Source: Nocardioides ginsengisegetis (GTDB taxonomy: Bacteria > Actinomycetota > Actinomycetes > Propionibacteriales > Nocardioidaceae). From it: a stretch of 64,000 nucleotides of DNA. The notes beneath the pieces were generated by a model. That model worked only from the letters and a program-made list of their open reading frames with translations. It searched no databases and was not told the origin of the DNA. Shown piece after piece: positions 25,139 to 27,738 of the stretch; the first letter of the stretch is position 1, and each line of letters begins with the position of its first letter. The position numbers and the translations under genes were made by a program. Where the stretch lies: the NCBI RefSeq assembly GCF_014138045.1, contig NZ_JACGXA010000001.1, positions 3,705,001 through 3,769,000 on the forward strand. Reading direction: 5' to 3'.

Positions 25139-25816
25139 GTGGACAACGACGTACTGCGTCAGGCGCCGCTGTTCAGCGCGCTCGACGACGAGGCTGCCAC
25201 CGCCCTGCGGTCCTCCATGACCGAGAGCCGGCTCCGTCGCGGCGACGTGCTCTTCCACGAGGGCGACTCCGGCGACAAGCTGTACGTCGTCCTCGACGGC
25301 AAGGTGAAGCTCGGCCGCACCTCCTCCGACGGCCGCGAGAACCTCCTCGCGATCCTCGGCCCCGGCCAGATGTTCGGCGAGCTCTCGCTCTTCGACCCCG
25401 GCCCGCGCTCGGCCACCGTCACCGCCGTCACCGACGCGTCCTTCGCCTCGCTCTCCCACGAGGACCTGCTCCGCTGGCTCGAGGGCCGTCCCGTCGTGGC
25501 GCGTGGCCTCCTCGCCCAGCTGGCCGGTCGCCTCCGCAAGGCCAACGACGTCGTCGCCGACCTGGTCTTCTCCGACGTGCCCGGCCGCGTGGCCAAGGCG
25601 CTGCTCGACCTCGCCGACCGCTTCGGCCGCACCGCAGACGACGGCGTCCACGTCCACCACGACCTCACGCAGGAGGAGCTCGCCCAGCTGGTCGGCGCCT
25701 CCCGCGAGACCGTCAACAAGGCGCTGGCCGACTTCGCGTCGCGCGGCTGGCTGCGCCTCGAGCCCCGCTCGGTCGTGATCATGGACGTCGAGCGACTGGC
25801 CCGCCGCGCCCGCTGA
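25139..25816 (+). CDS. crp: Crp/Fnr-family cAMP-responsive regulator
   Basis: 225 aa from GTG 25139 with AAGGAGGA five bases upstream. Cyclic-nucleotide-binding beta barrel with FGELSLFDPGPRSATVTA, the phosphate-binding cassette (Arg-Ser-Ala and Glu), then a helix-turn-helix LTQEELAQLVGASRETVNKALADF. Dimeric transcription factor equivalent to Rv3676 and corynebacterial GlxR, global regulators of carbon and energy genes. No Fnr-type cysteine set. Confidence 0.93.
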   Translation: MDNDVLRQAPLFSALDDEAATALRSSMTESRLRRGDVLFHEGDSGDKLYVVLDGKVKLGRTSSDGRENLLAILGPGQMFGELSLFDPGPRSATVTAVTDASFASLSHEDLLRWLEGRPVVARGLLAQLAGRLRKANDVVADLVFSDVPGRVAKALLDLADRFGRTADDGVHVHHDLTQEELAQLVGASRETVNKALADFASRGWLRLEPRSVVIMDVERLARRAR

Positions 25817-25855
25817 GTCGAATCGGGACCTCTCGTCACTCGAGTCGGTAGTTCC
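25817..25855. repeat. Left inverted repeat bounding the DUF559 gene
   Basis: 39 bases starting at the base after the crp stop codon. Its reverse complement matches 26907-26945 at 32 of 39 positions. Contains the palindrome ACTCGAGT. Confidence 0.8.
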
Positions 25856-25857
25856 GG

Positions 25858-26775
25858 TCACCATCTCCGGGTGGTGTACGACGACCGCAGGGCCTCGCTG
25901 ACCTGCTGGAGCCAGTGGGTCAGTGCGTCCCCGGTGAAGTCACCGGCACGTACGACGATGACGGTCCACCCGTGGGCGCGCAGCCAGGCGCGACGGCGCT
26001 CGTCGTACTCGCGCTGGTCGCTGCCCTCGTGCGCCTCCTCACCGTCGTACTCCACCGCCACCCGCGCGCGGCGATAGGCGAAGTCGAGCCGGAACGTGGG
26101 CACGCCGTCGACCTCGATCCACACTTGCGGCTCAGGCAGGGCCAGCCCGGCCTCGGCGATCTCGAGGAACACCCAGGCCTCCCGCTGCGATTCCATCCGC
26201 GGGTCGACCAGCGCCGCCAGCCGCCGTGCCTGGATCACGCCTCGCCGGCGGCGGTAGCGGCGCGCAAGCTCCTGGAGGAGCTGGGCCCGGGTCAGTCCGT
26301 GCTCGTGCGCCAGGGCGACCATCGCGCCGAAGGCCTCACGGCGCCGCAGACAGCAGCCTAGATCGAGCGCGGTGCGCAACGGGGTGGTGACGTGCAGACC
26401 CTGGACCGTCATCACGTCGTCCGGCGCGAGGTCCCGGGTCCAGCCGTCGACGCCGGGCAGCGATGTCGGCTCGTGCCAGCGCAGCGCGCACACCTCGACC
26501 GGGAGCGGGACGTCGTGCTCAGCGAAGGAGTGGACGTCGACACCATGCAGCCACGCGGCCGTGCGGTCGGTGACGACGTGATGGGGCGTGACGACCTGCG
26601 CGACCGCCGCCACCCGCAGCTCGAACGTGTCCGGCAGGTCCGAGCGGAGGTAGACCCCGCGCAGGGGCGAGCTGAGCTCGCCGCGGCGCAGTCCCCGGCG
26701 TACGTCCGAGGGCCGGAGCCTCCGCTCCCGGATTGCAGCGAGGGTAAAGGGTTGGTCGGGCCAGATGCTCTCCAT
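25858..26775 (-). CDS. AbiEi-like winged-helix / DUF559 nuclease-fold protein
   Basis: 305 aa. Residues 1-75 (FTLAAIRERRLRPSDVRRGLRRGELSSPLRGVYL shortened here to its pattern) fit the AbiEi-antitoxin-like winged helix that opens many actinobacterial DUF559 proteins. Residues about 200-295 are DUF559, a Vsr-like PD-(D/E)XK fold: VEYDGEEAH carries the metal-binding acidic residues and WTVIVVRAGDF closes the core. No toxin gene is adjacent. The gene sits between crp and the MBL gene, which are neighbours in mycobacteria, and is bounded by 39-base inverted repeats, so it looks like an inserted element. The repeats end within five bases of both flanking genes. Possible homing-type or selfish nuclease; function unknown. 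Confidence 0.8.
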   Translation of the reverse strand: MESIWPDQPFTLAAIRERRLRPSDVRRGLRRGELSSPLRGVYLRSDLPDTFELRVAAVAQVVTPHHVVTDRTAAWLHGVDVHSFAEHDVPLPVEVCALRWHEPTSLPGVDGWTRDLAPDDVMTVQGLHVTTPLRTALDLGCCLRRREAFGAMVALAHEHGLTRAQLLQELARRYRRRRGVIQARRLAALVDPRMESQREAWVFLEIAEAGLALPEPQVWIEVDGVPTFRLDFAYRRARVAVEYDGEEAHEGSDQREYDERRRAWLRAHGWTVIVVRAGDFTGDALTHWLQQVSEALRSSYTTRRW

Positions 26776-26906
26776 CCGACGACCTTCGACGTCGAGCGGG
26801 TCCTCGCGCGTCCGTCCTCCCCCACCCTGTGGGGACCCACGTATCGAGGTCCACCTGTGGACGGCTCATGGCCCGTCGACGGCCACAGATCCCGACTCAT
26901 CTGACG

Positions 26907-26945
26907 GGAAGTACCGACTCGAGTGGCAGAAAGTCCCGATTCAAC
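26907..26945. repeat. Right inverted repeat bounding the DUF559 gene
   Basis: GGAAGTACCGACTCGAGTGG and the following 19 bases mirror 25817-25855 (32/39 identities). The last five bases overlap the stop end of the MBL-fold gene. Confidence 0.8.
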
Positions 26946-27738
26946 CTTGGAGGTGGGCCAGCTGGGCCCGCACGGACAGCTCGGCGGCGCCCCACAGCAC
27001 CTGGTCGACGTCCTGGTAGACGATCTCGACCACGCGTCGGGGCAGCTCGTCGTCGGTGAGCGGCTCCTCGCCCCCGCCCAGGGTCGCGACCGCGGCCTCG
27101 ACCTGCGCCAGCCGCTCCCGTCGGTGCGCGATGTAGTAGTCGAGCGCGCCCAGGGCGTCGTCGATGACCGGCCCGTGTCCGGGCCAGATGGCGGCGAGCT
27201 CGTGCTCGGCGGCGAGCGCGTGCAGCCGGTCGAGCGAGTCGAGGTAGGCGCCGAGCCGCCCGTCGGGGTGCGCCACGACCGTGGTGCCGCGGCCCAGCAC
27301 GGTGTCACCGGTGAGGACCACCCGCTCGGCGGGCAGGAGGAACGACAGCGAGTCGGCCGTGTGGCCGGGCGTGCCGACGACGTGCACCTCGAGACCGTCG
27401 AGCGCGACGACATCGCCGTCGGCCAGGCCCTCGGAGCCGAGCCGGTAGGCCGGGTCCAGGGCGCGCACGCCACAGCCCATCCGCTCCGCGAACTCGCGGG
27501 CCGCCTCGGAGTGGTCGGCGTGGTGGTGGGTGAGCAGCACCATGCCGACCTCACCGGCGGTCTCGGCCACCGCGTCGAGGTGGGACAGGATCGAGGGTCC
27601 GGGGTCGACCACGATCGAGCGCCGGGCGTCGGGCTCGCGCAGCACCCACGTGTTGGTGCCGTCGAGGGTCATCATGTCGGCGTTGGGCGCCAGGACGCAC
27701 GCGCCCCGCTCGCCGAACGTCCCCCCGGACCAGGTCAT
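26941..27738 (-). CDS. Metallo-beta-lactamase-fold hydrolase
   Basis: 265 aa from ATG 27738. Metal motif THHHADH (HxHxDH), a later His in GTPGHTADS, Asp in TGDTVLG and His in WPGHGPV complete the two-metal site. A C-terminal winged-helix-like part (TDDELPRRVVEIVYQDVDQ) is typical of LACTB2/Rv3677c-like enzymes, some of which are RNases. Substrate unknown. Overlaps the nudix stop by four bases. Confidence 0.88.
   Translation of the reverse strand: MTWSGGTFGERGACVLAPNADMMTLDGTNTWVLREPDARRSIVVDPGPSILSHLDAVAETAGEVGMVLLTHHHADHSEAAREFAERMGCGVRALDPAYRLGSEGLADGDVVALDGLEVHVVGTPGHTADSLSFLLPAERVVLTGDTVLGRGTTVVAHPDGRLGAYLDSLDRLHALAAEHELAAIWPGHGPVIDDALGALDYYIAHRRERLAQVEAAVATLGGGEEPLTDDELPRRVVEIVYQDVDQVLWGAAELSVRAQLAHLQG

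Follow-up and report, generated by a model that had tools for sequence, protein, structure and literature searches.

A DUF559/AbiEi-like putative nuclease gene of Nocardioides ginsengisegetis lies within one of a family of short dispersed elements built of arrays of 22-bp units

The 64,000-nucleotide stretch of the Nocardioides ginsengisegetis genome considered here (contig NZ_JACGXA010000001.1, positions 3,705,001 to 3,769,000; hereafter the window) contains a DUF559/AbiEi-like gene enclosed by two inverted arms, located between crp and a metallo-beta-lactamase-fold (MBL) gene (Table 1). An original prediction, made from the letters alone, described this arrangement as a mobile cassette bounded by 39-bp inverted repeats, and its description of the locus is borne out: the nuclease-like gene lies between two convergent genes, the left arm begins directly after the crp stop codon (TGA, 25814-25816), and the outermost right-arm unit supplies, with its TGA, the stop codon of MBL (26941-26943). 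The inverted match comprises 44 nt (25817-25860 and 26902-26945), encloses the predicted 39-bp core, is 82% complementary and scores 21.5, compared with a maximum of 17.0 among 960 shuffles. Beyond what had been predicted, the arms are arrays of 22-bp units, each consisting of a GTYGARTCGGGANTT-like part and ~7 variable bases, and the DUF559 stop codon overlaps the left arm. The element ends read GTCGAATCGGG on the left and, on the other strand, GTTGAATCGGG on the right, where a weaker third unit occupies 26887-26899. DUF559 is the only gene recognised between the arms by gene calls and Pfam; no transposase, TnsB, TnsC or other transposition gene was recognised there, as had been predicted, and no search was aimed at the rest of the genome. 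Neither an intron nor an intein was seen, the gene sitting between two complete genes with multi-unit arrays on either side. The feature had no plasmid matches at blastn sensitivity, and its single match to an RNA family, a viral one far under the gathering score, falls inside the DUF559 gene.

Table 1. Genes and arms of the crp-MBL interval (window coordinates)
Feature	Position	Strand	Basis or remark
crp (cyclic nucleotide (cNMP)-binding regulator), left neighbour	25139..25816	+	Pfam PF00027/PF13545 and sequence
Left arm, two 22-bp units	25817..25860	+	Unit first bases 25819, 25841
DUF559/AbiEi-like protein with predicted Vsr fold, 305 aa	25858..26775	-	Stop codon overlaps left arm
Right arm, two clear units plus a weaker third towards the centre	26887..26945	-	Unit first bases 26943, 26921, 26899
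MBL gene, right neighbour	26941..27738	-	Stop TGA in outermost right-arm unit

The protein is predicted to join an AbiEi-like N-terminal part to a C-terminal Vsr/EDxHD homing-nuclease fold. The Pfam match to DUF559/MTES_1575 covers residues 224-284 of 305, the AbiEi match in the N-terminal part is weak, and the structural model matches both AbiEi and Vsr-type nucleases, with the homing endonuclease I-Bth0305I as the top-ranked solved fold. The nuclease residues are conserved. Homologues are present in 96 of 98 genus genomes, with close homologues (E<=1e-80) in 38 (48 genes), of which 30 carry one copy and eight carry two or three; the searches ran without genomes G124, G148, G173 and G210. In a sample of the actinobacterial phylum, 91 of 296 genomes encode a DUF559/AbiEi-like homologue. 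Such genes are, we presume, usually filed as solitary antitoxins or unknown nucleases. No AbiEii nucleotidyltransferase toxin lies beside the gene described here, its neighbours being crp and the MBL-fold gene.

Of the eight elements of this dispersed family found in the genome, the window's is the one that carries the gene, and its seven sister elements are gene-less. The 13-base end motif, allowing one mismatch, occurs 20 times in this genome and the two-unit pattern 25 times, with controls at zero in both cases. The seven gene-less elements are 100-166 bp long and lie on contig C1 at ~0.24, 1.06, 1.25, 1.49, 2.15, 2.70 and 3.41 Mb. Each consists of two to three units, a short centre and two to four inverted units, has the same ends as the gene-bearing copy and contains no DUF559 gene; six adjoin the 3' end of a gene. 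It is from these sister elements that the array nature of the window's arms is read, since the arms themselves are too short, with periodicity scores of 9.0 and 6.5 against a threshold of 12.5. A 14-base core is no commoner than chance in the window, and genome-wide it was matched exactly three times and once with a mismatch, compared with one match for the reversed control. Target duplications were looked for by eye in the flanks, and no consistent one was found. The same genome has a second DUF559-like gene (L002, G000:C1:1945844-1946617; G and L denote genomes and loci), 40% identical; the 65-nt inverted match at its flanks is of another kind and shows no significant periodicity of 22 bp. 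The flanking inverted matches of L093-L096 likewise do not follow a 22-bp period, nor do the 149-nt repeats of L193.

Arrays of this kind recur around homologues across the genus. Among 96 homologue loci, close and distant, 81 have an inverted flank match above the maximum of 960 shuffles, in line with the recurrence around DUF559 genes that had been anticipated. When periods of 18-25 were scanned, the 133 flanking arrays above all shuffles had a period of 22 (93 arrays) or 21 (40 arrays) and no other. A second locus set, on named contigs that nearly all belong to Nocardioides and its close relatives and drawn largely from the same genomes (80 loci, 79 usable after L298 was dropped as too near a contig end), gave 70 loci with inverted repeats and 64 with arrays, and a period of 21 or 22 in 109 of 110 arrays. 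The unit sequence varies by locus, e.g., TGAATCGGGAGTT..., TGAGTTGGGCC..., CGAGGAGTCAATCCC... and CGAAGTGCGCGG..., and the YGA anchor is kept. Its presence in all 73 phased consensus units is a consequence of how the phasing was built; in 63 of the 73 it is followed by G or A. Left units and inverted right units agree at 0.82 within a locus, against 0.545 between loci and 0.505 in direct orientation.

As a control, the flanks of crp in 30 genomes gave no inverted match above 17; six downstream arrays found there are elements abutting crp, and there was one upstream match (L136). Among 28 distant DUF559 loci in the phylum (L247 being dropped as too near a contig end), the inverted-repeat threshold was exceeded in six and arrays were found in two, with periods of 19 and 25. 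In Leekyejoonella antrihumi (L308), a member of another genus, an array lies upstream. Several distant relatives from other actinobacterial families (L236, L243, L245, L252, L255 and L256, with L237 and L254 at the threshold) have other inverted or palindromic flanks without 22-bp arrays, possibly representing further element types.

The geometry of the arrays was analysed in 68 array groups of at least three units from eight genomes; L347 and L350, in which units can be read on either strand, were excluded from the centre distances, the mirror-unit comparison and the arm counts. Of 296 spacings between neighbouring units, 280 are 22 bp and 13 are 21 bp; the layout is strictly inverted in 44 of the 68 groups and one-sided or irregular in the others. 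Distances across the centre (44 values) cluster near 25, 35, 45, 55 and 65, with a few values off the peaks, e.g., 38. The 20 distances that do not belong to the main peak keep its phase (p<0.0001), in a test set that includes the 27 loci on which the phasing was first spotted. Such helical phasing suggests sites on double-stranded DNA. A model in which the arms fold as hairpins found little support: mirror-image units hardly exceed non-mirror units in likeness (0.736 and 0.713), so pairing does not appear to be maintained.

The arms were also placed relative to gene ends. A sense reading frame precedes 79 of 109 arms, frames with a stop more than 36 nt ahead of the arm not being scored as sense. 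Of these 79 frames, 13 end at the TGA of the unit itself; the stop precedes the arm by up to 12 nt in 32 (TGA, TAG and TAA being all represented) and by 13-31 nt in 20, and the remaining 14 frames continue past the first unit. Convergent genes flank 20 of the 41 strict elements from six genomes, and 38 of the 41 adjoin one gene 3' end or more, counts given without a background rate.

The dispersed arrays are cognate to the DUF559 flank of their own genome. When the 10 free bases of class-2 units were compared with DUF559 flanks, 6.19 of 10 matched the own flank, compared with 4.24 for those of seven other genomes. Counting distinct strings among the matches listed and excluding copies within 3 kb of a DUF559 gene, the own flank ranked first for 34 of 47 10-mers (genome-level p=0.0001). 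Across 73 loci, unit and protein co-vary (Mantel r=0.277, p=0.0005, uncorrected for shared ancestry), with a peak of 0.317 at residues 76-105 (numbering of homologue L009) in the AbiEi-like part, compared with 0.200 in the nuclease part. The window's own arms are in neither test, being under the array threshold for the Mantel test and of the other class for the 10-mer test. In a 98-genome sample, a close homologue is present in 17 of 18 genomes with arrays of either class and in 21 of 80 others (p=8.6e-8); the remaining array genome, G050, has its best homologue at 2.6e-72.

Class-1 units were found in 19 of 215 genomes, with a single match in six, and class-2 units in 16; the reversed-core control of the class-2 scan resembles the unit and is not independent (it matched in G061, G060, G049, G152, G120 and G173), and was therefore set aside. 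An intact close homologue is encoded in 17 of the 19 class-1 genomes, a frameshifted one in G191 and none in G150. Two-unit matches per genome range from none to 133 between species. The maximum among the 215 genomes, 133 matches of its class, is found in G061 and perhaps reflects a recent expansion. The G191 homologue (L186/L203, G191:C20:20081-20961) is split by the frameshift in a genome with about a dozen gene-less arrays, which would reflect decay of the driver or else an error in sequencing.

Both empty and filled crp-MBL gaps are found in relatives, as the original prediction had anticipated for an insertion. The gap is empty in G009, G068 and G032, with 27-133 nt to the MBL match, and filled with a close homologue in G000 (the genome of the window), G010, G088 and G018. 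In the empty gap of G009, 17 nt separate the stop codons of crp and MBL, and the latter ends in LQNR*, while the window's MBL ends in LQG*, its stop supplied by the element's TGA. The gap holds a more distant DUF559-like gene in G091 and on one G004 contig, and an insert of ~1.4 kb in G041; in 20 of 30 crp loci, no MBL was found in the 1.5 kb that follows crp. Near the inserts of G091, G004 and G041 (L141, L148 and L135), which perhaps represent a second element type in this gap, there are palindromic repeats, e.g., GCGCAATTGCGC. In 20 of the 39 sampled genomes that have a close homologue (G050 included), the gene is no more than 4 kb from crp: adjacent in nine, ~2 kb further on in five and ~3.5 kb away on the opposite side in six. 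The remaining half or so are elsewhere or on other contigs. This distribution is more suggestive of inheritance accompanied by local relocation than of free hopping. Arrays also occur in other gaps nearby, e.g., after crp in G055 and G061.

A difference in element presence was observed between the sister species G164 and G036, which are 96% identical at the DUF559 locus. At one site, termed site A, an element is present in G164 and absent in G036 and G018; as read from the alignments, the right-hand gene in G164 stops at the element's TGA, and the same gene in G036 has lost its stop. G036 shares three of five elements of G164 and lacks one, while the fifth has no counterpart in the stretches compared. 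Among the three shared sites, one differs in unit number and one by a 1.48-kb gene pair. This pair, a MerR-type regulator and an alcohol dehydrogenase-like gene (L470, G036:C1:~3746158-3747639, compared with L468 of G164), is found in G036 alone and is flanked by array remnants, as if lost or gained through recombination at the units. In addition, ~1.9 kb between the DUF559 element and crp in G036 (L010) is missing in G164 (L178), with the break just outside the element end.

The reading that we favour, with a probability of about 0.6, is that the feature is a gene-bearing copy of a family of short dispersed elements whose inverted ~22-bp arrays are spread by the AbiEi-Vsr nuclease. The element is made of two inverted arrays, with units comprising a YGA anchor and a lineage-specific core, around a short centre that is empty in most copies and in one copy of this genome houses the gene of the two-part protein. 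The AbiEi part would read the units as double-stranded DNA on one helix face, and the two arms would be brought together by the protein. The nuclease may then cut at the array or at a new site, and repair would copy gene-less arrays to new places, the protein thus binding units, cutting DNA and driving the copying. The elements, their dispersal, the unit geometry, the cognate pairing with the protein and one site that differs in presence between close species are observed, whereas the action of the protein on the arrays is inferred. Sites at gene 3' ends would be retained, as we propose, because insertion does least harm there. By analogy, the system would best be read as a REPIN-RAYT-like partnership with an unrelated nuclease and without a transposase.

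Several observations weigh against this reading. Inspection of the flanks by eye gave no consistent target duplication. At 15 of the 96 homologue loci the inverted-repeat test failed, several being truncated or distant, and seven close homologues (L015, L018, L058, L063, L071, L075 and L182) have weak or one-sided flanks. Class-1 arrays occur without a close homologue in G150, and the dispersed units of G050, the sole such genome, fit the flank of another genome better than their own. Shared ancestry could contribute to the co-variation, and the phasing was tested partly on the loci that had suggested it. At site A, the state of G036 may be a deletion, because its right-hand gene has lost its stop, and a possible 4-bp CCCT repeat there could equally be deletion microhomology. 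Finally, movement is slow, judging by the sites shared between G164 and G036.

Other explanations would assign different roles to arrays and gene. The arrays could be chromosomal target sites of a selfish homing gene, with the nuclease cutting gene-less arrays and repair inserting the gene. The I-Bth0305I fold fits this idea, as do the ends common to gene-less and gene-bearing arrays, the three places of near-crp homologues (9, 5 and 6 genomes) and the arrays in other gaps near crp in G055 and G061. We nevertheless consider it unlikely, as all arrays but one in the own genome are empty, 30 of 38 genomes have one close homologue and eight have two or three, and the dispersal of gene-less arrays to unrelated places would be left unexplained. 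Somewhat less likely still is that the arrays are bidirectional 3'-end or terminator elements, anciently spread and now a host property, with the protein as a DNA- or RNA-binding regulator and its nuclease fold put to some other use. Conserved nuclease residues, helical phasing suited to duplex DNA, the range from none to 133 two-unit matches across species and the barely greater likeness of mirror units all speak against it, although 45 of 79 sense arms begin at or up to 12 nt past a stop codon, 20 of 41 strict elements lie between convergent genes (again without a background rate), and the arms as RNA would be expected to fold.

The mobile cassette first proposed, under which the gene-bearing unit moves and the gene-less copies would be deletion remnants resembling miniature inverted-repeat transposable elements (MITEs), appears the least probable. 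Its insertion unit finds support in the empty and filled crp-MBL gaps, but the repeats are arrays of 22-bp units rather than simple terminal repeats. Likewise, the repeats recur around DUF559 genes and both forms have the same ends, yet gene-less elements outnumber the gene-bearing one by seven to one in this genome. The proximity of the gene to crp in 20 of 39 genomes, the lack of a consistent target duplication and G061 arms surrounding a gene that is resident in relatives also argue against it.

Compared with known systems, the arrays spread by a nuclease, as favoured here, most resemble REPIN-RAYT. That system comprises short dispersed non-autonomous inverted-repeat elements linked to a resident gene located close to such repeats, with repeat and protein co-evolving (PMC3116915, PMC8266576, PMC8049555). 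The same combination is found here: dispersed inverted-repeat elements tied to a resident gene, with repeats that co-vary with the protein and are cognate to the partner-gene flanks of their own genome. The partner gene is present once in 30 of 38 genomes and two or three times in eight, and near crp in 20 of 39, in three places. However, the REPIN-RAYT partner is an HUH tyrosine transposase, whereas the enzyme here is AbiEi-like with a predicted Vsr/EDxHD fold rather than of the HUH/Y1 type. REPIN-RAYT units are single palindromes acting as single-stranded hairpins, while those described here form helically phased 22-bp direct-repeat arrays in which, despite the inverted layout of 44 of 68 groups, mirror pairing does not appear to be maintained. 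The likeness would therefore be one in the way of working and not of membership, given the other enzyme fold and the other repeat architecture.

EDxHD homing endonucleases such as I-Bth0305I share the Vsr-like domain, but here there is no intron, intein or split single site, and the flanks are multi-unit arrays that are widespread in gene-less form. The AbiEi fold is shared with AbiE type IV toxin-antitoxin systems; here it is fused to a nuclease, has no adjacent AbiEii toxin and is bordered by arrays on both sides. Unlike Tn7 with its ends and TnsA, no TnsB, TnsC or other transposition gene was recognised between the arms. As regards insertion sequences and MITEs, no transposase was recognised between the arms, and there is a possible 4-bp repeat at site A but no consistent duplication by eye in the flanks. 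In the open-licence PubMed Central literature searched, no earlier link of DUF559/AbiEi proteins to dispersed arrays was found. The findings point to a hitherto unrecognised type of small mobile DNA, maintained not by a transposase but by a nuclease gene. The broader proposal of a new class, in which inverted arrays of helically phased 22-bp sites are copied by a resident AbiEi-Vsr nuclease without a transposase, with specificity set by the AbiEi-like part and re-invented many times within the genus, is more tentative, and we place it slightly short of an even chance.

DUF559/AbiEi-like genes hereby gain a partner, genome-wide cognate DNA arrays, and with it a testable function, and the more than 70 protein-site pairs with different units form a natural series. 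The system would be a second instance in which a resident gene accompanies a short-repeat population, here with an unrelated enzyme, and, if true, a convergent counterpart of REPIN-RAYT acting on double-stranded DNA. It bears on why short repeats persist in compact genomes, and the arrays also occur at places where gene content differs between close species.

Inverted arms of 2-7 units also surround single ordinary genes in G061 (L386, L387 and L389) and G124 (L392 and L396). Named by eye, these are YceH/methyltransferase-like, VOC, DUF2695-like, cation efflux and methyltransferase genes. That such units are cargo cassettes was rejected for the G061 DUF2695 gene beside a BtuF-like gene: the arms appear to have been added around a resident gene, because the relatives G055 and G038 hold the same neighbour without arms.
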